From IMG/VR virus record IMGVR_UViG_3300046460_000420, positions 1 to 39,837 of that record: a stretch of DNA of 39,837 nt; one strand, 5' to 3'. Below the pieces are notes generated by a model. The model saw only the letters and a list, made by a program, of their open reading frames with translations, did no database searches and was not told where the DNA came from. A program made the translations under genes and the position numbers. This DNA comes from a virus. Shown here piece after piece: positions 275 to 39,837 of this stretch. Within the stretch, counting starts at the first letter, position 1. Each line of letters opens with the position of its first letter.

Positions 275-291
275 TTCAACATATTGTTGAC
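275..291 (+). promoter_or_regulatory. Dispersed 17-bp operator, site 1
   Basis: TTCAACA-TAT-TGTTGAC, a near-perfect palindrome 47 nt before the ATG at 339. The right arm runs into TTGACA (287-292), a good sigma-70-type -35 box, with CATGGT 17 nt further on as a weak -10. An operator over the first early promoter is therefore plausible. Confidence 0.7.
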
Positions 292-918: not shown

Positions 919-935
919 TTCCACCTTTTCTTGAA
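919..935 (+). promoter_or_regulatory. Dispersed operator, site 2 (divergent copy)
   Basis: TTCCACC-TTT-TCTTGAA in the 42-nt gap before the ATG at 954. It is weaker than site 1 but close to site 3 and to the plus-strand reading of site 15; the three share CACCTTTT followed by TTGA. It ends 18 nt before the start codon and just upstream of the SD (CTGGAG). Confidence 0.5.
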
Positions 936-1470: not shown

Positions 1471-1487
1471 TTCACCTTTTTCTTGAA
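1471..1487 (+). promoter_or_regulatory. Dispersed operator, site 3 (divergent copy)
   Basis: TTCACCT-TTT-TCTTGAA in the 53-nt gap before the ATG at 1511. It matches site 2 and the plus-strand reading of site 15 better than it matches the central consensus, so it belongs to a sub-group of the repeat. Confidence 0.5.
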
Positions 1488-4667: not shown

Positions 4668-4684
4668 TTCAATAAAATGTTGAC
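4668..4684 (+). promoter_or_regulatory. Dispersed operator, site 4
   Basis: TTCAATA-AAA-TGTTGAC, starting 6 nt after the stop at 4661 and ending 59 nt before the ATG at 4744. The right arm merges into TTGACA (4680-4685), a good -35 box, so a second early promoter is likely here. The -10 region is not clear. Confidence 0.65.
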
Positions 4685-6701: not shown

Positions 6702-6718
6702 TTCAACTATTTGTTGAC
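6702..6718 (+). promoter_or_regulatory. Dispersed operator, site 5
   Basis: TTCAACT-ATT-TGTTGAC, in the gap after 6698 and 53 nt before the ATG at 6772. As at sites 1 and 4, the right arm creates TTGACA (6714-6719). The shared site-to-start distance of about 47-59 nt at sites 1, 4 and 5 fits operator-covered promoters. Confidence 0.68.
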
Positions 6719-7054: not shown

Positions 7055-7071
7055 TTCAACATATTATTGAA
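7055..7071 (+). promoter_or_regulatory. Dispersed operator, site 6
   Basis: TTCAACA-TAT-TATTGAA, one of the best copies. It begins 6 nt after the hairpin at 7034-7049 and ends 20 nt before the GTG at 7092. It is too near the start to be a -35 region for a leadered transcript of that gene. Confidence 0.68.
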
Positions 7072-7718: not shown

Positions 7719-7891
7719 TGGGTGCGCCCCAGTGGATCTTGGTAGCCGCGCTGGCTGGCACCGCCATTGGGGCGGTCCTCGCACACGGAAAACGCCAGGT
7801 GGTCATTCACGACCGCCGGCATCTTGCACTGGCCCTCGGCGCGATCGTCGTTGAGGCCGTGCTGCTGACCTGGGGAGGTTTCTGGTCATGA
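7718..7891 (+). CDS. Two-span small membrane protein (57 aa)
   Basis: It starts in a TGATG overlap with the previous gene and stops in an ATGA overlap with the GapR-like gene. Two hydrophobic stretches, about residues 5-23 and 35-52, are separated by a basic loop (HGKRQVVIHDRRH), suggesting a helical hairpin in the inner membrane. Function unknown; a superinfection or moron role is only a guess. Confidence 0.62.
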   Translation: MGAPQWILVAALAGTAIGAVLAHGKRQVVIHDRRHLALALGAIVVEAVLLTWGGFWS

Positions 7892-8208
7892 GCGACACCG
7901 ACATCGACGGCTTGCTGGCCCAGGCGGCCGGGGTGGGACACAACTCGGGCAGCGAGCCCCACGCCGACGTCTTGAATTCGACGGCCCAGGGCCAGCTGAA
8001 GTCCATCATCGACCGCGTCGAGCGCCTGGAGGAAGACAAGGCCGCCATCTCCGAGGACATCAAGGAGATCTATATGGAGGCCAAGGGCAACGGCTTCGAC
8101 GTGAAGATCCTCCGCAAGGTGGTTCGCATCCTGAAGCAGGACCGGGCGAAGCGCCAGGAGGAGATGGCGATCATCGACCTCTACCTGTCCGCCATCGGGG
8201 TTCTGTGA
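7888..8208 (+). CDS. GapR-like DUF2312 DNA-binding protein (106 aa)
   Basis: Residues about 33-106 match the DUF2312/GapR pattern: a first helix LKSIIDRVERLEEDKAAI, then IKEIYMEAKGNGFDVKILRK, and a last helix ending in LDLYL-type residues. GapR of Caulobacter is an essential nucleoid-associated protein that clamps overtwisted, AT-rich DNA and helps topoisomerases ahead of replication and transcription. This copy has an extra N-terminus of about 30 residues carrying VGHNSG. A phage copy may stand in for, or interfere with, host GapR. Family assignment is confident; the phage role is inference. Confidence 0.88.
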   Translation: MSDTDIDGLLAQAAGVGHNSGSEPHADVLNSTAQGQLKSIIDRVERLEEDKAAISEDIKEIYMEAKGNGFDVKILRKVVRILKQDRAKRQEEMAIIDLYLSAIGVL

Positions 8209-12991: not shown

Positions 12992-13008
12992 TTCAACAAT
13001 ATGTTGAT
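12992..13008 (-). promoter_or_regulatory. Dispersed operator, site 7 (lysis genes)
   Basis: Read in the gene direction: ATCAACA-TAT-TGTTGAA, in the gap between tail spike and holin, 22 nt before the holin ATG. It sets the lysis genes apart from the tail genes. Confidence 0.65.
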
Positions 13009-19780: not shown

Positions 19781-19797
19781 CTCAATAAAACGTCGAA
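19781..19797 (-). promoter_or_regulatory. Possible dispersed operator, site 8 (degenerate)
   Basis: Read in the gene direction: TTCGACG-TTT-TATTGAG. It overlaps the stop codon of the sulfotransferase and lies 8 nt before the next ATG. It is the weakest copy and may be chance, but its place in a gene boundary is like the others. Confidence 0.35.
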
Positions 19798-20353: not shown

Positions 20354-20370
20354 TTCCACATAATGTTGAA
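20354..20370 (-). promoter_or_regulatory. Dispersed operator, site 9 (sulfotransferase)
   Basis: Read in the gene direction: TTCAACA-TTA-TGTGGAA, in the gap after the DUF2163-like gene and 23-35 nt before the sulfotransferase start. The gene thus seems to have been inserted together with, or next to, a regulatory site. Confidence 0.6.
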
Positions 20371-22482: not shown

Positions 22483-22499
22483 TTCAATATATTGTTGAA
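22483..22499 (-). promoter_or_regulatory. Dispersed operator, site 10 (distal tail block)
   Basis: Read in the gene direction: TTCAACA-ATA-TATTGAA, one mismatch from a perfect palindrome over the arms. It is in the 67-nt gap between tape measure and distal tail. TTGAAA in its right arm and TATGGT 16 nt later could form a promoter, as at the early sites. Confidence 0.68.
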
Positions 22500-27447: not shown

Positions 27448-28266
27448 TTAGGCCGCGATGGCCAGGCCGTTGCCGTAGAGACCTTCGAGCCCATCGCGCT
27501 CGAGCACCTCCACGGTGAACGGGATCTCGGCGAAGGCGTCGGCGCTCTTCAGCTGGATCTCGCCGTCCACCGTCAGCTTCACGTACGGCATGAACCAGTT
27601 CATGTTCTCGCCCTCCGCGTTGTAGCTGCGGTAGCGCAAGGTGCCCTCGACTTCGGTGTTGGCGGCGACCACGATGTTGCGCGTGGAGGTCTTGGTCTTG
27701 TAGCTGACCAGGATGTCGTCGCCGGGCGCGATGGAGCCGCCCACGAGCGGGATCACGTAGGCCTGCTCCATGTCGACGACATAGTCGGTGCCTTCGGTCT
27801 TGGTGACCGAACCGACCTTCACGATGACCTTGACCGTGGTCGAGGTGTGGAAGTCGAGATTGACGACGCCGGCCGGATTGTTGGCGCTGGTGCCCAGCTG
27901 ATAGGCACGCCCCAACACCACGTCGTTGTGGGGCTCGTCGGTGAAGGTCGCGCCGACCACAGAGAGCACTGCGGCCGAACCCATGAGGGCGCGCGCCATG
28001 TTCTGCGGGCTGATGATGTCCGTCGTGAACGAGCCACTGCGGGTCACCGAGGTCACGACCGAACGGTTGCGCTTTTTCGTGCCGCGATCCGACCCCATGT
28101 GCTCGATCTTGGTCGTCGCGACACCCAGGCCGAAAGCCGTCGAATGGCCGATGTACTCCTCGCCACCGCTCGGAGTAGTGGTGCCGGGGAGGAACGGATC
28201 GAACCACAGCTCGCCGTTCCCGAGGGTCAGATACTTGTTACCGGATTCCAGGTCGGCGGAAGCCAT
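27448..28266 (-). CDS. Major tail tube protein (272 aa)
   Basis: A 272-residue beta-rich protein just before the chaperones, in the position and size range of major tail proteins. Segments such as GEEYIGHSTAFGLG, TVKVIVKVG and EIPFTVEVLERDG fit the tube fold plus an inserted Ig-like part. It would form the hexameric rings of the flexible tail. GGAG lies 7 nt before the start and operator site 11 is 22 nt upstream. Confidence 0.82.
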   Translation of the reverse strand: MASADLESGNKYLTLGNGELWFDPFLPGTTTPSGGEEYIGHSTAFGLGVATTKIEHMGSDRGTKKRNRSVVTSVTRSGSFTTDIISPQNMARALMGSAAVLSVVGATFTDEPHNDVVLGRAYQLGTSANNPAGVVNLDFHTSTTVKVIVKVGSVTKTEGTDYVVDMEQAYVIPLVGGSIAPGDDILVSYKTKTSTRNIVVAANTEVEGTLRYRSYNAEGENMNWFMPYVKLTVDGEIQLKSADAFAEIPFTVEVLERDGLEGLYGNGLAIAA

Positions 28267-28287
28267 GAGGTCGCTCCTTGTTGAGGG

Positions 28288-28304
28288 TTCACTAATATGT
28301 TGAA
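28288..28304 (-). promoter_or_regulatory. Dispersed operator, site 11 (tail tube block)
   Basis: Read in the gene direction: TTCAACA-TAT-TAGTGAA, 22 nt before the tail tube ATG and just upstream of its SD. It is too near the start to be a -35 element for this gene. Confidence 0.65.
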
Positions 28305-28311
28305 ATTGCCG

Positions 28312-28836
28312 CTACGCATAGGGATTGTTCAGGTTCTCCGCTACGCCCAGCGTTACGGTCAGCCAGAAGTGGGCCTTGGCTGACACGAAGGTTTCCGGGG
28401 GGCGCACGACACCACCGCCGAAACTAAGCGACCGGACCTCGTTGCCCTGGCCGCGTCCCGGGCCCATGCCCAGCACGTTCGGGGTGCGGCCGGCCTCACC
28501 GAGACGGTTCTTTTCCTTGATCAGGCAGCGCTTGGCGTCGCCCATCAAGCGGTGGCCTGGATCGGTTGGGTGAGTCGGATCATCGTCGACCCATCCCTGA
28601 AGCAAAAGCTCCCAATCGCCGACGCTGCGGTCGCCGCGCACCTCCTGATCGGGCTGAAGCGGCTGCTCCAAGATCGAGAGCATGGGGATTGGGTCATCGG
28701 CGCCGAACCAGTCACGACCACGGAAAACGGACGTCGCAAGGTCGTGCCGATACCCGTTAGCCACCGTGATAGACCGAAGCGCGTCGGTAAGCGCGATGAG
28801 CACTCGCAGACGGAAGGGATCTTCGAAATCGGCCAT
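28312..28836 (-). CDS. Tail terminator / completion protein (174 aa)
   Basis: 174 residues, in the lambda gpU position directly before the tail tube gene. A helix-strand pattern at the start (LRVLIALTDALRSI) and a strand FWLTVTLGV at the end fit the tail-terminator fold. It would cap the tube and join it to the head. The assignment rests mostly on order and length. Confidence 0.68.
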   Translation of the reverse strand: MADFEDPFRLRVLIALTDALRSITVANGYRHDLATSVFRGRDWFGADDPIPMLSILEQPLQPDQEVRGDRSVGDWELLLQGWVDDDPTHPTDPGHRLMGDAKRCLIKEKNRLGEAGRTPNVLGMGPGRGQGNEVRSLSFGGGVVRPPETFVSAKAHFWLTVTLGVAENLNNPYA

Positions 28837-28837
28837 G

Positions 28838-29449
28838 TCACAAGTCCAGTTTCAACAGACGGTGGAACTCGTCTTCGAGGCGGTCAGCCATGCTGGGCGC
28901 GATGTCCTGGGCGACACCCCGATCGCCGCCAAACACTTGATTTACCGAGGGCCCAAAAAGTAAGAACAGGTTCTTCCCGATTGGCAGCGGCTTCCACGCG
29001 CCCGTCGGAGGCCCGCCGGCTGTCCGAACGGCCAGCCCTTTGTTCCCGGACCGCAGCTGGAAGATGAAGGCGCGCCCTATGGTTTTAGTGGTGTCCTTCA
29101 CCTTGACCTTCACGCCGCCCTGGCGCTGGCGGGCGGCCGGGGCCGTGCTGCCGACCACGAAGCGGGCCAGACTGGTGGGACGATCGCGCGCCGCGAGCAC
29201 AGCGGCCAGATTGCCCACAGACGCCCGGCTGGTCACGCCCAAGCGCGGTTGTCCCTGGCCATCGAGCTCAGTGAGATAGCGCGCCGGGAAATTGATCTGC
29301 TCTCGGATCTCACGACTGGCGACGGCCCGCGCGTGGTCGACGGTCTTGTTGATGGCACGATAAGCAGCGACGGCGACGGCGCCTGCGATATCCTCAAGTC
29401 CGTCTCCGGTATCGAGCCCCTCCACAGCTACGATGTAGGGCTGCGTCAT
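28838..29449 (-). CDS. Minor tail protein Z-like (203 aa)
   Basis: A helical N-terminus with repeated Ala/Arg (AAYRAINKTVDHARAVASREIREQ) followed by a basic beta-rich middle with R and K clusters matches the gpZ-like minor tail family. In lambda gpZ acts at the head-tail joint. The position between connector and terminator genes agrees. Confidence 0.7.
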   Translation of the reverse strand: MTQPYIVAVEGLDTGDGLEDIAGAVAVAAYRAINKTVDHARAVASREIREQINFPARYLTELDGQGQPRLGVTSRASVGNLAAVLAARDRPTSLARFVVGSTAPAARQRQGGVKVKVKDTTKTIGRAFIFQLRSGNKGLAVRTAGGPPTGAWKPLPIGKNLFLLFGPSVNQVFGGDRGVAQDIAPSMADRLEDEFHRLLKLDL

Positions 29450-29826
29450 CAGACGAACTCCGCATCGATGTGGGCTTGGGTCATGACCGTGAGGTTGGCG
29501 GTTTGGGTGATGCCATCCGGCTCCTCGATCACGCCCAGTCGGTAGCCTTCTCGCTGACCAGAAAAGGACTCGGTCGCGTCGACCACGAAGAAGGCGTTGC
29601 GGACGGGGGCGACCTCGGAGCGCAGGAAGATCGCCTTGGGCTGGACGTCGGACCGCTCGGCGGCCGGTATGCCCTTCAGCTCGCCGAGGCGATCAAATTT
29701 CGTGTGTATCCGCACGGTCACGGGCAACGCCTCTGCGCCACGCACGGCATAGTAGTTCGCGGGGACCGACATCCGTTGATGAAGGTCCCCGCGAGCGCGG
29801 GTCTTGATGTCCCGCATATGGTTCAT
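29449..29826 (-). CDS. Head-tail joining protein (125 aa)
   Basis: The ATG at 29826 overlaps the previous stop (TGATG); the longer frame upstream is a shadow. The product is 125 residues, beta-rich, and sits in the lambda FII position. A stopper or adaptor role between portal and tail is likely. Sequence alone does not settle the family. Confidence 0.65.
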   Translation of the reverse strand: MNHMRDIKTRARGDLHQRMSVPANYYAVRGAEALPVTVRIHTKFDRLGELKGIPAAERSDVQPKAIFLRSEVAPVRNAFFVVDATESFSGQREGYRLGVIEEPDGITQTANLTVMTQAHIDAEFV

Positions 29827-30284
29827 CAGTCGAGCAGACCGCCGGTGGCGCCAGCCGTCAGCTTGGCACGATGGTCGGAAATCCACGCCTCGGCCGCTTC
29901 CCTGGTGTCGAGGCCGTCGACCAATCGCTCATCGCCCTTCAGCACGGACCACTTAGCCGCGCCTCGGAACTTGGTGGTCAGGCCGTCGTCAGTGTCCGAG
30001 GCGCCGCCTGCGGCGTGCGGAGTCGGAGCGACGGGCTCGCCGGTCAGGATCGACGGGATTTCCGGCGCGACCTTGGCGGCGATGCGTTCAGCGGTGACGG
30101 TCGAGCCGCCATCGTCTTCGATCTGAGCCTTGTCGACGTTGGTGGCGGGACGCACGGCGCCCTGCTTTTCGAAGTCGGCGTAGTGGGCGTCGGACATGTC
30201 GACCACTTGGCCCGCCGGCACGGTCTTCAGTTCGCCGTCCTCGACATATTGGAGGGTGTGTTGAGCGTAGGCGGTTTTCGCCAT
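29826..30284 (-). CDS. gpFI-position head protein (152 aa)
   Basis: An acidic 152-residue protein following the major capsid gene, with a small N-terminal beta domain, an Ala/Pro-rich linker and a C-terminal helical end (TREAAEAWISDHRAKL). In lambda the gene at this place (FI) helps packaging. The homology is positional. Start ATG at 30284, 11 nt from operator site 12. Confidence 0.65.
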   Translation of the reverse strand: MAKTAYAQHTLQYVEDGELKTVPAGQVVDMSDAHYADFEKQGAVRPATNVDKAQIEDDGGSTVTAERIAAKVAPEIPSILTGEPVAPTPHAAGGASDTDDGLTTKFRGAAKWSVLKGDERLVDGLDTREAAEAWISDHRAKLTAGATGGLLD

Positions 30285-30295
30285 GACGATTGATC

Positions 30296-30312
30296 CTCAA
30301 TAAAAGGTTGAA
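30296..30312 (-). promoter_or_regulatory. Dispersed operator, site 12
   Basis: Read in the gene direction: TTCAACC-TTT-TATTGAG. The end of the repeat overlaps the likely SD (GAGGAT) of the gene starting at 30284. A protein bound here would affect elongation or, if bound to RNA, translation, rather than cover a -35 box. Confidence 0.58.
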
Positions 30313-34994: not shown

Positions 34995-35209
34995 CAGAAC
35001 ACCCGCATCGGGCCGACGTTGACCGTGCAGCCGGCGGCCGTCGCAATCTGGTTTTTCAGGCCTTGGATATAGAGGGCCAGAAGACCCGCATTGGCGACGG
35101 TGTACGACACCTTCTCGCCGTTCTGGTCGACGTACTCGCGCACCGACTTGCCCGTCATCAGCGCGTGATACGAGGCCTCGGCGTCAACAAGCATTTCGGC
35201 GAGGGTCAT
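34991..35209 (-). CDS. gpW-like head-tail joining protein (72 aa)
   Basis: The ATG at 35209 (MTLAEMLVDAE) is used; the longer frame from 35272 reads through operator site 13 and a dyad and is not credible. The pattern helix, HALMTGKSVREYVDQNGEKVSYT hairpin (given in parts: HALMTGKS, DQNGEKVSYT), helix is that of gpW, a small protein that plugs the portal before tail joining. It overlaps the portal gene by 4 nt. Confidence 0.82.
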   Translation of the reverse strand: MTLAEMLVDAEASYHALMTGKSVREYVDQNGEKVSYTVANAGLLALYIQGLKNQIATAAGCTVNVGPMRVFC

Positions 35210-35217
35210 GCGATCCA

Positions 35218-35247
35218 ATACCTGGGAGGTCGGCGTTACCCAGGTAT
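35218..35247. promoter_or_regulatory. Perfect 9-bp dyad before gpW
   Basis: ATACCTGGG (35218-35226) and CCCAGGTAT (35239-35247) form a perfect inverted repeat with a 12-nt spacer, between operator site 13 and the gpW start. It could be the binding site of a second regulator or an mRNA hairpin whose base is 8 nt from the start codon. Confidence 0.5.
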
Positions 35248-35248
35248 A

Positions 35249-35265
35249 TTCACTAAAACAGTGAA
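35249..35265 (-). promoter_or_regulatory. Dispersed operator, site 13
   Basis: Read in the gene direction: TTCACTG-TTT-TAGTGAA, with perfectly matching TTCACT/AGTGAA arms. It is the left member of a pair whose centres are 37 bp apart, between terminase and gpW. Confidence 0.65.
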
Positions 35266-35285
35266 AGTGCAATAGTTAGTTGATT

Positions 35286-35302
35286 GTCAACATTTAGTTG
35301 AC
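35286..35302 (-). promoter_or_regulatory. Dispersed operator, site 14
   Basis: Read in the gene direction: GTCAACT-AAA-TGTTGAC; the perfect arms extend to TGTCAAC/GTTGACA (35285-35303). It begins 4 nt after the terminase large-subunit stop. This is the only place with two sites in tandem. Confidence 0.68.
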
Positions 35303-35305
35303 AGT

Positions 35306-37441
35306 CTAGCCAAGTTGATCGGCAAGATCTTCCATCGACACATCCGAGCGCTTTTTCTCGGCGAAGCGCGGCTCGGCCCCAGCCTGGCTGACCAAGTCAT
35401 TGAGGTCCCACACCGCCGCCCAGCTGGGAGGCTTAGCCCAGTCGATGCTTTCGATCCGAATTGTCGGCGTCAGGCAGATGCCTTCGGCGTAATAGAGCAG
35501 GTCCCAGGCCTCGTTCTTCCGGCCCTTCTTGGGATCGTCCCAGCCATTGGGTCCGCGTACTTCAGCGGTCAGCTGAGAATAGAACCAATCGGGCGCCCAT
35601 GTCGGATAGCGAACCATGCCGCCGCCGGCCTCGAAGCGTCCGAGCTTGTTGAATGCCTGGTCCTTCAAGATGTCCGAGTTTAGCAGCCAGACGGGTTCAT
35701 CGCCGCGCGCGGCCGTGAAGCGGTCTTTCCGCTCGGCGTCAGGGAAGGAGTGCCGCACGCGCGGCGCCGACTTGCTCGACGCGCCCTTGACCAGGATGAA
35801 GCGCTTCTGGTGCCCAGGTGTCCAGTTGGCGTATTCGAGGGTGCCCTTGGGCGGCCCCTCCCCGAGATAGCGCCAGAACGCATAGGCGTTCGTCGTCACG
35901 CCGGCCTTGCCGCCGGAGTCCGACGACGTCAGCTTGATCTGCATCCGGCGTCCGGAGCCGTCTGCCAGCGGATAGGTCTTCTCGATCACCTGGGGAATCA
36001 GCAGATGCCAGTCCTCGGGATAGGCGGCCGGGTCGATCAAGTGATAGTCGCCGCGCTTGTCGGTTTGATCGATCCGATCTGACTTGCGGATCTTGAACAT
36101 ATCGATGACCGTGGTGTCGTTGCCCGGGCCGTGGCCATGCACCTGTACGACAAACGCGGGCTTGGCGCCGGCCTGGACGTCGACCGAGGCCGTGAGGAAC
36201 CGAACCCAGTCGGGCACGGTCGGCTCAGCCATCGTCGAACCCCAGTCCTCGGCCCGCTCCTTCAGCTGCTCGGGGAGACGGCTGGCCTTTAGGGCCTTGG
36301 GCACATACGGGTCGCCTTGGTCGGCGTTGACCGTCTTCTTCAGGGGGCTCTCGTCGCCTGTCGACGCGTAGGCCTTCTCGGCGTTGAGGTGATTCAGGAC
36401 GATGTCCGACCAGTCCTGCCAGTAGGCGGCTGGGCCCTTCATCCAGAACGAAGCGATCTTGGACCGGAGCGGTTTCATGCCGTTACGCGCGACAATGCCG
36501 CTTTCGGGCATCCAAATCATGCCCTCGCGCACCCACCGGCCGCCATTGTTCAGTTCGTCCTTCATGGACGCTTCGATCACGCAGCCGTTGTTCGGGCAAA
36601 CCATGACGACGGCCTCGGCCGACTCCATGAAGTCCGAGCTCTCGGGGAAGCTCAGCGTTTGGAAGGTCGGCTCGAAGGCCTCCTTGCAGTCCGGACATTG
36701 CCAGTTCAGGCGCCGGCGATCGCCGCGGTTATAGAGCTCGAGGATGCCCTTGGCCGGCGGCGCCTCATGCGGGCGTTCCGGGCTGGGCCGCCAGTTGGGG
36801 TCGGTAACCTCCTTGCCGGGGGACGACTCGGCCACGGTCATGGCGAAGCGCTTGAAGGTGGTGCCGCGCTTCGCGGTCAAGTCGAAGGCGTTGCCCTCGC
36901 CCTCGATGTCGTCGGCGATGCCGTCATAGTCGGGGATCCAGTGCCGCTGCACGGTCTTGCCGCGCAGGTTAGACACCGTCGGCCAGGTGACCTGCAGGCG
37001 CATCCCGGACAGGAAGCGCTTGTCGTACACGTTGTCGTTCTGGCGGCCTGGGACCAAGCGGTTCCGCACCTCGTCGCTGGCGTTGAGCATCCGCGTCAGG
37101 TCAGCCAGCGACCAATCCCGGCCGGTCGACTGGGTGTTGTGGACCAGCAGCATGTCCGATGGATCGCAGACCACGCTGTAGGCGAGCCAGTTGAGGAACG
37201 CCGCCGACTTACCGGTCCGGGCCGGGCCGACGAACACCATGCCCGTATGCTCAAGGCTGGTGAGCGTCTCCATCGGCTCGATCAAGTAGGGGGTCTTCGT
37301 CGGGTCCCATGGCCCCGAGTGCGAGCCGGGCGACCTGACGATGTGATATTTGTGGCCGGCCTGCGGGACTGTCAGGCGCTCGGGCGGGCGCACGGCCTGC
37401 GCGCTCGCAACGATCATGTCCTGGATCGTGTGGAACGTCAT
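35306..37441 (-). CDS. Terminase large subunit (GpA family, 711 aa)
   Basis: 711 residues, the usual length of lambda gpA-type terminases. The ATPase half has a Walker A-like loop GPARTGKS (72-79), followed by the expected strand-helix order. A zinc ribbon (CPDC, then CPNNGC) lies near residues 250-290. The C-terminal nuclease half has conserved-looking acidic positions (SVDVQAG, SSDSGGKAG, NEAWDLLYY). It cuts concatemers at cos sites and drives DNA into the head. It overlaps the small subunit by 4 nt. Confidence 0.93.
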   Translation of the reverse strand: MTFHTIQDMIVASAQAVRPPERLTVPQAGHKYHIVRSPGSHSGPWDPTKTPYLIEPMETLTSLEHTGMVFVGPARTGKSAAFLNWLAYSVVCDPSDMLLVHNTQSTGRDWSLADLTRMLNASDEVRNRLVPGRQNDNVYDKRFLSGMRLQVTWPTVSNLRGKTVQRHWIPDYDGIADDIEGEGNAFDLTAKRGTTFKRFAMTVAESSPGKEVTDPNWRPSPERPHEAPPAKGILELYNRGDRRRLNWQCPDCKEAFEPTFQTLSFPESSDFMESAEAVVMVCPNNGCVIEASMKDELNNGGRWVREGMIWMPESGIVARNGMKPLRSKIASFWMKGPAAYWQDWSDIVLNHLNAEKAYASTGDESPLKKTVNADQGDPYVPKALKASRLPEQLKERAEDWGSTMAEPTVPDWVRFLTASVDVQAGAKPAFVVQVHGHGPGNDTTVIDMFKIRKSDRIDQTDKRGDYHLIDPAAYPEDWHLLIPQVIEKTYPLADGSGRRMQIKLTSSDSGGKAGVTTNAYAFWRYLGEGPPKGTLEYANWTPGHQKRFILVKGASSKSAPRVRHSFPDAERKDRFTAARGDEPVWLLNSDILKDQAFNKLGRFEAGGGMVRYPTWAPDWFYSQLTAEVRGPNGWDDPKKGRKNEAWDLLYYAEGICLTPTIRIESIDWAKPPSWAAVWDLNDLVSQAGAEPRFAEKKRSDVSMEDLADQLG

Positions 37442-38244
37442 TCGAGGAGGCTGCCGATCTCGTAATCGACCTCCTCGGGCTCGGCGATAGGATCGACGGC
37501 CTTGCTGCGGGTCTGCTTCGCGGCCGGCATGGCGATCAGCCGCTCATGGATGTCGGTCTGCAAGGCTGAGACGTTGCCCATCAGCGCGGCATACTGCTCG
37601 GTCGACATGGCCGCCTTGCCAGGCAGGTTCTCAATCCACAGCTGGGTGGCTTCCTTCAGGTTGATGAAGAGGTCACCGAAGACCTGCAACACATCCTCAG
37701 TGGCCCAGGCGTCGGCGGCTTCGAGCTCGTACTTGAGCCGGATGCGCTTGGCCTCCCAGTAGGTCTTGTTGATGTGGTTGGGCAGCTTGGCTGGGTCTAG
37801 CGACTTGATGTACTCGTCCATGTCCATTTTGGGCTTCACGAGAAAGCCGGACGCCTGAACGAAGTCGTAGACCGGCCGGCCGTTGCCGGCGTTGCCCAGC
37901 GACGGACAGCGCACCAGGCGCTTCTTCACGGTCTGGGGATCCATCCGGAAGACCTTGGCCAGCCAGTTGACCGTGACCGGCTGGAGGAAGTCAGCCCAGT
38001 CCGGCGCCGTGCCCTGCCCGGCCGCCGCGCGCGAGATGTCCTTCTGCGTTAGCTTGGCCTTCGCGGCCTGCAGCTGTTCCTCGACCTCCTCGTTGGTCGG
38101 CCGGCCCACGCGTTCCCTCGGCGGCGCATACGAACTGCGCCCGCGCTTGGGTGCCTCAGGCGCCGGTTCGACGACGATCTGCTCGATTGGATTGGGATCC
38201 GGGTCCGGGGCCACGGCGGCGTCCAGTAGGTCGTCGATGTTCAT
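37438..38244 (-). CDS. Terminase small subunit (Nu1-like, 268 aa)
   Basis: A Pro/Glu-rich N-terminus, then a winged-helix DNA-binding segment (VNWLAKVFRMDPQTVKKRL, about 92-112), then a long helical part that would dimerise and bind the large subunit. The layout fits the DUF1441/Nu1 group. It recognises the cos region. It overlaps both the alpA-like gene and the large subunit by 4 nt, so all three are probably one transcript. Confidence 0.82.
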   Translation of the reverse strand: MNIDDLLDAAVAPDPDPNPIEQIVVEPAPEAPKRGRSSYAPPRERVGRPTNEEVEEQLQAAKAKLTQKDISRAAAGQGTAPDWADFLQPVTVNWLAKVFRMDPQTVKKRLVRCPSLGNAGNGRPVYDFVQASGFLVKPKMDMDEYIKSLDPAKLPNHINKTYWEAKRIRLKYELEAADAWATEDVLQVFGDLFINLKEATQLWIENLPGKAAMSTEQYAALMGNVSALQTDIHERLIAMPAAKQTRSKAVDPIAEPEEVDYEIGSLLE

Positions 38245-38462
38245 GCGAGCAGGTCACCGATCTGCGGGTCAATCTGATCCCAGAGCCAGCGGTCGACCAC
38301 GGCCTTCGGCCAGACCGAGGTGCGGTATCCGAGCTTCGCCGGCTTGGGGAAGGTGCCTTTCCTGATCCGCCGATAGAGCTCCGACTTCGAAAGCCCGGAC
38401 CGCTCGCGGACCTCAGGCAGGCGAAGGAAGCGTGTGTCGGCGGTTGCCCCCTGGCTGATCAT
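38241..38462 (-). CDS. AlpA-family regulator or excisionase (73 aa)
   Basis: The pattern RFLRLPEVRERSGLSKSELYRRI then GTFPKPAKLG and VWPKAVVDRWL is the AlpA winged-helix family (written here in pieces of the motif). AlpA proteins activate prophage genes or act as excisionases. Placed at the head of the late genes, translationally coupled to the terminase and near the integrase, it could do either. Operator site 15 lies 33 nt before its start, so it is probably under the same control as the other blocks. Confidence 0.85.
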   Translation of the reverse strand: MISQGATADTRFLRLPEVRERSGLSKSELYRRIRKGTFPKPAKLGYRTSVWPKAVVDRWLWDQIDPQIGDLLA

Positions 38463-38494: not shown

Positions 38495-38511
38495 TTCACC
38501 TTTTTGTTGAC
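38495..38511 (-). promoter_or_regulatory. Dispersed operator, site 15 (start of late genes)
   Basis: Read in the gene direction: GTCAACA-AAA-AGGTGAA, 33 nt before the alpA-like start. TTGAGT just upstream and the TATGCT after it could be promoter parts. Its plus-strand reading is close to sites 2 and 3. Confidence 0.6.
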
Positions 38512-38628: not shown

Positions 38629-39837
38629 CTAGGACAGCAGCGAGGCGATTTCCGATTTCTTGTCCAGGTAGGCCGACCACCAGGCCATCATGGCGGTGCG
38701 CTCCTTAAGCCATTGGGCTGAATTATAAGCCGCCCGCACCCGGTCCTCCTCGACGTGTGCCAGCTGCATCTCCACCCAGTCGCTATTGAAGCCGTTCTCA
38801 TTCAGCACGGTCGACGCCAGCCCGCGCATCCCGTGAACGGTGGCGCGGGAATGCAGACCGAGTCGATAGAGGCAATAGATGAGCGTGTTGGCGCTCAGCG
38901 CCCCGTCGCGACTCTTGCCCGGGAAGACGAACTGGCTCTGCACGCGCATCGACGCGGCGAGCTGCGCGGCCTCATCCAGCAGGCGGACCGCGCGCGGCGT
39001 GAGCGGCACCAGGTGTTCGCGGTGCATCTTCATTCGCTCAGGCGGAATGCGCCACACCGGGTTCGGTCCGCGCAAACCCTCGATCTCTGACCACTGAGCG
39101 TAGCGGACCTCGCTGGTGCGGACGAAGGTAGTCAACACGAAGTCCAGCGCCAGGCGGGTCATGGCGTCGCCGTCATAGGCGGCCAGCTTCGTCATGAAGT
39201 CCGGCAGGTCGCGTTCCTTCAGCGCGGCGCGGTGTTTCACCCGGGGCTTGGGTTTCAGAGCGTTGCCTAGGTAGGCGGCCGGGTCGATCTCGGCCAAGTC
39301 GTCGGCGATGGCATAGCGGAACACCTGGCTAATCGACTGGCGGATGCGCTTGGTGATGTCGAGCGCGCCGCGGGCTTCGACCTTCCGCAGCAGGGCCAGG
39401 ATGTTCGCCGACTTGATCTCGATCAGGGGCAAATCGCCGATAGCCGGGTAGACGTCCTCGACGAGGCGATTGCGGATGCGCAGCATGTGGCCGGCGGACC
39501 AGACGTACGTCTTGCTGCCCAGCCATTCCTCCGCCGCCCACTTGAACGTCGGCAGGCCCTGTCGCTTGTGCTCGGCGACCTTCTTGGCCTCGCCTGGGTC
39601 AGCACCCGCCTCCAAGACCTTCTTGGCCGCGTGGCGTCGATCCCGCGCCTCGGCCAGTGTCACGACAGGGTAGGCGCCGAACGACAGTGTCTTCTGCTTC
39701 CCGCCGAACCGATAGGCCATCCGCCAAAGCCGACTGCCGTTCACCGGCACGAAAAGATAGAGGCCCTCCGAGTCGGACAGCTTGTAGGGCCGCTCCTTCG
39801 CCTTGGCATGACGACAGGCCAGTTCAGTGAGCGCCAT
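38629..39837 (-). CDS. P4-type tyrosine integrase (402 aa)
   Basis: 402 residues with the DUF4102 N-terminal domain (about 1-90: KLSDSEGLYLFV, FGGKQKTLSFGAYP), a core-binding domain (95-180) and a catalytic domain with Arg240, Lys270, His335-x-x-Arg338, His361 and the nucleophile Tyr371. All catalytic residues are present, so it should be active. P4-type integrases usually recombine at tRNA or tmRNA genes. The ATG is the last codon of the window, so the attachment site lies outside. The gene has its own hairpin terminator. Confidence 0.95.
   Translation of the reverse strand: MALTELACRHAKAKERPYKLSDSEGLYLFVPVNGSRLWRMAYRFGGKQKTLSFGAYPVVTLAEARDRRHAAKKVLEAGADPGEAKKVAEHKRQGLPTFKWAAEEWLGSKTYVWSAGHMLRIRNRLVEDVYPAIGDLPLIEIKSANILALLRKVEARGALDITKRIRQSISQVFRYAIADDLAEIDPAAYLGNALKPKPRVKHRAALKERDLPDFMTKLAAYDGDAMTRLALDFVLTTFVRTSEVRYAQWSEIEGLRGPNPVWRIPPERMKMHREHLVPLTPRAVRLLDEAAQLAASMRVQSQFVFPGKSRDGALSANTLIYCLYRLGLHSRATVHGMRGLASTVLNENGFNSDWVEMQLAHVEEDRVRAAYNSAQWLKERTAMMAWWSAYLDKKSEIASLLS

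Follow-up and report, generated by a model that had tools for sequence, protein, structure and literature searches.

Where a short repeat is scattered through a phage genome and some of its copies stand almost against a start codon, what can a protein bound to those copies do? The question is raised by the window studied here, the whole stretch of 39,837 nucleotides analysed, a 39.8-kb virus contig with about 15 copies of the near-palindrome TTCAAC-N5-GTTGAA. An earlier note on this DNA had set the late copies, as too near to start codons to be -35 regions, apart from sites 1, 4 and 5, which form promoters, and had proposed that at least part of the set acts on elongation, on transcripts from upstream, or on ribosome access.

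Sites 11 and 12 are not -35 regions

The two late copies at issue, and a weaker putative copy between them that may be a chance match, are as follows.

28289..28303, - strand: site 11, near-start, 22 nt before the major tail protein gene 27448-28266
28852..28866, - strand: weaker putative copy, 15 nt before the tail terminator gene 28312-28836, in the end of the preceding gene
30297..30311, - strand: site 12, near-start, 12 nt before ORF 29826-30284, the gene after the major capsid protein

On the - strand, site 11 and what follows it read TTCAACATATTAGTGA-accctcaacAAGGAGcgacctc-ATG, with the ATG at 28266 and a separate Shine-Dalgarno sequence in between, and site 12 reads TTCAACCTTTTATTGA-ggatcaatcgtc-ATG, with the ATG at 30284. 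The gap of 22 nt at site 11 is the one that had been claimed, and the 12 nt at site 12 differ from the claimed 11 by an amount that depends on where the site is cut. The described overlap of site 12 with the Shine-Dalgarno was also recovered, the last two bases of the site falling within the likely sequence GAGGA. The earlier note had argued that no leadered transcript of the next gene can come from these sites. Indeed, if either were a -35, with a spacer of 17 nt, a -10 of 6 nt and about 7 nt from there to +1, the 5' end would fall about 32 nt downstream of the site, inside the gene, so that even a leaderless mRNA is excluded. Ribosome access gained no support, the RNA of sites 11 and 12 taken alone being unfolded (0 kcal/mol). 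An RNA hairpin at these sites was also considered and rejected: near-start copies break the pairing and keep the upstream half, and the hairpin is thus not a conserved feature.

Copies of the repeat in the window

Allowing up to three mismatches, TCAACAWWWTGTTGA has 18 matches in the window compared with 0.35 in shuffles. TCAAC-N5-GTTGA with at most one mismatch has 12, of which 10 fall in the non-coding 6.3% (p = 6e-11). Sites are dispersed genome-wide and largely restricted to gaps between genes, the early genes lying on the + strand and the structural genes (terminase, portal, protease, capsid, tail) on the - strand in a Casjensviridae-type arrangement. An exact 16-mer scan of viral contigs was discarded, as it returned mostly AT-rich chance matches. 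The other copies are listed below with their distance to the next start codon.

276..290, + strand: site 1, promoter-type, TTGACA -35 at the site end, 48 nt before ORF 339-911
920..934, + strand: site 2, near-start, 19 nt
1472..1486, + strand: site 3, near-start, 24 nt
4669..4683, + strand: site 4, promoter-type (TTGACA), 60 nt
6703..6717, + strand: site 5, promoter-type (TTGACA), 60 nt (counted to ATG 6778)
7056..7070, + strand: site 6, near-start, 21 nt
12993..13007, - strand: site 7, near-start, 23 nt
19782..19796, - strand: site 8, near-start but weak, 9 nt before a tail assembly chaperone gene
20355..20369, - strand: site 9, near-start, 24 nt
22484..22498, - strand: site 10, promoter-type in the late arm (TTGAAA, 16 nt, TATGGT), 48 nt
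35250..35301, - strand: three-copy cluster between terL and the gpW-like head-tail joining gene
38496..38510, - strand: copy at the xis/AlpA-like gene 38241-38462, inside the -35/-10 spacer TTGAGT-17-TATGCT

For site 5 the start was taken as ATG 6778, which has a Shine-Dalgarno. Directly before site 1, at about 212-258, there is a GC-rich inverted repeat (CCCGTGACCG/CGGTCACGGG), possibly a terminator that insulates the early promoter.

Sites 1, 4 and 5 end in TTGACA at 48, 60 and 60 nt from their starts (47-59 had been claimed), and sites 6 and 7, which had been placed at about 20 nt, lie at 21 and 23 nt. The proposed division into two classes holds insofar as the geometries differ and the near-start copies are not -35 regions. 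Lateness is the part that fails: the copies at 920, 1472 and 7056 belong to the early arm and yet have starts 19, 24 and 21 nt away. What separates the two classes is how far the next gene lies, not lateness. Moreover, the set extends beyond site 12, to the three-copy cluster at 35250-35301 and the copy at 38496, both apparently promoter-type by their sequence. The copy at 35250 is straddled by TTGCAC-18-TATACC, which is likely a late promoter with its operator.

The palindrome in temperate Casjensviridae

TerL and portal of the window share 49-58% identity with Casjensviridae members, and the order of the structural genes matches that of RHph_X2_30; a search of viral contigs with the capsid protein found no relatives. 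TerL relatives, which were chosen without regard to the motif, carried the palindrome. In a blind ranking of 5x1024 palindromes (half-sites of 5 bases, spacers of 3-7 bases) in non-coding DNA, TCAAC-N5-GTTGA, or the same palindrome one base outward, came first or level first in the window and in the temperate relatives RHph_X2_30, AchV4 and YMC16, phages of Sinorhizobium, Achromobacter and Klebsiella (alpha-, beta- and gammaproteobacteria). RcRios, AH2 and DSS3-P1 gave different half-sites, less clearly. RHph, AchV4 and YMC16 hold 22-38 scored sites, compared with about 3-4 in shuffles. The share of sites in non-coding DNA, itself 5-8% of the DNA, is 10/12 in the window and 22/32, 12/25 and 9/15 in the relatives.

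Several positions recur. The gap upstream of the major tail protein gene holds a palindrome in the window and in most of the relatives examined. In the window, RHph_X2_30, AchV4 and YMC16 its distance to the start is 22-25 nt (in the last it is a weak copy, with a second copy 4 nt from the start), and DSS3-P1, RcRios and SS2019XI carry palindromes with other half-sites in the same slot. A site also occupies the terL/gpW-like gap of RHph_X2_30, AchV4, YMC16 and others. The site before the AlpA/xis-like gene recurs in relatives, with the spacer geometry of the window copy at 38496 in RHph_X2_30 and AchV4. In RHph_X2_30 the counterpart of site 12, matched by gene order alone, is 32 nt away from its start.

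In the window (35205-35310) and in the matching gaps of loci L142, L144 and L149, the palindrome lies within the -35/-10 spacer of a likely late promoter before the gpW-like gene, an arrangement found in several Casjensviridae.

Chi, of the same family, has no such palindrome, and neither an integrase nor such a repressor in the 50 kb read. Partition or host-factor sites were set aside because Chi does without them.

Distance to the start codon and promoter geometry

We compiled 83 sites from four phages, each at most 80 nt upstream of a start, and scored promoters with a sigma-70 matrix from E. coli, perhaps a poor fit for alphaproteobacteria. At gaps of 48-80 nt, 18 of 24 sites are promoters, the downstream half being the -35 with a -10 at 16-18 nt, compared with 5 of 45 that have promoter geometry of either kind at 30 nt or less; the median promoter score is 8.0 in the former and about 0 in the latter (p = 1.5e-7). 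At 31-47 nt, 9 of 14 sites lie inside the -35/-10 spacer and the -10 starts about one base after the site, as at the gpW-like and xis-like genes. More than half of the sites (45/83) are thus within 30 nt of a start and, judged from sequence only, 40 of these 45 lack promoter geometry.

In 34 further loci, promoters again prevail at 48-80 nt (41/48) and the difference between near and far sites recurs (p = 1e-9), with 15 of 42 near sites promoter-like by either geometry under automatic gene calls with noisy starts. The spacer-type pattern at 31-47 nt was not repeated in these loci (3/9, with the same noisy calls).

The DNA upstream of near-start sites has a promoter signal not above that of shuffles (p = 0.11), and a consensus search for promoters between 27400 and 38700 found none. 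Near sites had seemed to be preceded by higher promoter scores than site-free gene starts; this was dismissed as a composition effect, as it vanished against shuffles of the same DNA. Since near-start sites come without upstream promoter signal, their best target would be the elongation of transcripts begun further upstream.

Where the gap is 3-13 nt, GGTGA, GTGGA or GAGGA frequently makes up the downstream half (among others in loci L142, L144 and L149), and this half matches the anti-Shine-Dalgarno over 4 bases in 13 of 17 cases, compared with 11/34 and 7/27 further away. The overlap at site 12 arises because the downstream half doubles as Shine-Dalgarno at such gaps. One short stretch there would serve the ribosome in RNA and the repressor in DNA, which explains the overlap and looks like dual use of scarce space; control of the ribosome by the repressor does not follow from it. 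A general one-way orientation of the sites (35:5 in the four phages at gaps up to 40 nt) was abandoned, the ratio being 51:46 in 28 other loci; the bias holds only at gaps up to 13 nt, where the Shine-Dalgarno accounts for it.

A candidate binding protein

The window has the xis-like gene 38241-38462 and an integrase gene that reaches the end of the contig.

38629..39837, - strand: tyrosine integrase gene, running to the right contig edge

The temperate relatives encode, close to the integrase and next to a helicase gene, an HTH protein some 230 residues long; in AchV4 and RHph this candidate repressor is AchV4_0078 and QXV73608, respectively. By analogy, the window's own repressor gene would lie just off the contig, and its cognate protein is predicted from those of the relatives.

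We examined 91 loci that encode a homologue of the HTH protein of AchV4 and ranked palindromes blindly where the DNA sufficed; in many loci the sites were too few for a ranking. The half-site changes with the recognition helix: S[HPAGR]EAVRKWF goes with TCAAC, SQEAVRKWF with ACAAC, SPNTMSKWF with TCACC and AETVRKWFAGETFP with TCACG. A at position 1 of the half-site accompanies a helix Gln in 6 of 8 groups compared with 0 of 16 without it (p = 2e-4; near-duplicates were merged by hand, and two Gln loci are exceptions). This co-variation makes the HTH protein the likely binder, and we strongly infer from it that the palindromes are bound by the phage's own repressor.

The repressor of the relatives belongs to HTH_3. 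In an AlphaFold model (mean pLDDT 87) its N-terminal domain resembles 434 Cro, and its C-terminal fold is nearest to I-Ssp6803I and Holliday junction resolvases (PD-(D/E)XK), a marginal resemblance with a best E of 9.5e-4. No cluster A repressor structure appeared among the sequence hits or among the best 50 by fold. The C-terminal domain of AchV4_0078 (L147:7056-7751) and its homologues is modelled as PD-(D/E)XK-nuclease-like, apparently without the catalytic ExK; a nuclease-like C-terminal domain would be unusual in a phage repressor. In the early region of the window, 7888-8208 encodes a protein with a GapR-like DNA-binding domain (PF10073).

Discussion

The reading that we consider probable is that the lysogeny repressor occupies promoter operators and, in addition, stoperator-like roadblocks within operons. 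A two-domain HTH repressor, encoded beside the integrase, would bind palindromes of two kinds. At promoter sites, where the palindrome is the -35 or lies between -35 and -10, binding would stop initiation, at the early promoters 276, 4669 and 6703 and at the late ones 22484, 35250-35301 and 38496. At sites 11 and 12 and the other near-start sites, bound repressor would halt polymerase that had started at a phage promoter further upstream or had come in from the host; we infer this roadblock action from the geometry, and near-start sites would thereby have a silencing effect in the lysogen. Their position could result from confinement to short intergenic gaps, in which the downstream half may double as Shine-Dalgarno. 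For L5, stoperators are reported to be intergenic, and a halt to elongation was proposed as their action (PMC3029335, PMC9283540). An HTH repressor that binds palindromes does not necessarily stop elongation, however, since CI and Cro of lambda and CI of phage 186 reportedly make weak roadblocks (PMC10310618).

Near-start sites could instead be ordinary operators, placed over the +1 or the early transcribed region of unrecognised upstream promoters and blocking initiation or clearance. This is apparently the case at the repressor's own gene, where TTGACT-17-TATCTG directly precedes the site in AchV4 and TTGACA-17-TAGATG is found in YMC16; these two near-start sites seem, from their sequence context, to be operators over +1. 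Furthermore, the E. coli matrix may describe alphaproteobacterial promoters poorly. For near-start sites at large we hold the explanation to be unlikely: their upstream DNA as a group does not exceed shuffles (p = 0.11), sites 11 and 12 show no promoter signal while the same matrix detects promoters at most far sites, and several near-start sites lie within runs of co-oriented structural genes. Long-range loops or prophage compaction could be the main purpose, with near-start placement merely reflecting available non-coding DNA. The spread of sites over the whole genome, mostly in gaps, would suit this, and looping is able to strengthen weak roadblocks (PMC10310618); it is nevertheless quite improbable, as individual slots, such as the one upstream of the major tail protein gene at 22-25 nt, are kept across phages about 50% identical, and compaction alone would not call for this.

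Translation-linked start-associated elements acting on ribosome access, like the SAS of cluster K mycobacteriophages, would fit the nearness to starts and the GGTGA, GTGGA and GAGGA halves at 3-13 nt, with their anti-Shine-Dalgarno match in 13 of 17 cases. We give this very little probability, for the same palindrome makes promoters elsewhere, the RNA of sites 11 and 12 has no fold by itself, the half-sites co-vary with a DNA-binding helix, and Chi, which translates its genes too, has no such palindrome. Binding of a phage activator or another regulator (Cro- or YdaS-like) rather than the repressor seems just as far-fetched. Further small HTH genes are present, for instance AchV4_0071 and AH2 gp77, and Cro-like proteins often share operators with the repressor, but the co-variation concerns the helix of the integrase-adjacent protein.

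A broader proposal, to which we give about an even chance, is that temperate Casjensviridae independently evolved a stoperator-type immunity, with a dimeric HTH repressor whose nuclease-like C-terminal domain has decayed, palindromes that are operators or roadblocks according to distance, a specificity split into TCAAC, ACAAC, TCACC and TCACG groups, and fixed slots. No paper came up in a literature search for the family together with repressor and operator, most subscription journals being outside its coverage, and the palindromes go without mention in those parts of the AchV4 and Rhodobacter phage papers whose text was searched. Stoperator silencing is established mainly in actinobacteriophages. 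If the proposal is true, a second case in an unrelated family, with another repressor and with symmetric sites, would suggest that dispersed roadblocks are a general means of prophage silencing. Promoter and near-start sites in one genome would offer a natural test of initiation versus elongation control by one protein, and the relation of helix to half-site across groups would be useful to predict superinfection immunity of temperate phages from sequence.

Cluster A stoperators (L5, Bxb1) number two to three dozen and are dispersed, mostly in short gaps between genes; some stand at promoters and others inside operons, and their consensus varies by immunity group and correlates with the repressor HTH (PMC3029335, PMC9283540). 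The sites described here resemble them in being dispersed and mainly intergenic, in standing both at promoters and within operons, and in having a group-specific consensus. They differ in being 15-bp palindromes with no general orientation rule, as opposed to 13-bp asymmetric sites of fixed orientation, and are presumably bound by a dimer, as opposed to a monomeric repressor with a Stoperator domain. The repressor of the relatives is unrelated to L5 gp71, its C-terminal fold being PD-(D/E)XK-like, and the hosts are proteobacterial. The system would work like stoperators but departs from them in two defining features, the asymmetric oriented site and the L5-type repressor.

The SAS/ESAS of cluster K mycobacteriophages are also conserved repeats just upstream of many start codons (PMC3203893). 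They are asymmetric and were tied by their authors to translation initiation, whereas the Casjensviridae palindrome makes promoters as well and changes together with a DNA-binding protein. The 22-bp repeats of T1-like phages (T1, TLS, Stevie), dispersed and intergenic, were compared to stoperators by their authors (PMC11447400, PMC4319613); unlike the palindromes of the temperate phages considered here, they are asymmetric and belong to virulent phages.

The 434 operators share with our sites an HTH_3 repressor, palindromic half-sites and a helix Gln that goes with A at position 1, the half-site being ACAA in 434 and ACAAC here. Operators of 434 are confined to one control region, whereas the Casjensviridae sites are scattered through the genome and lie inside late operons.
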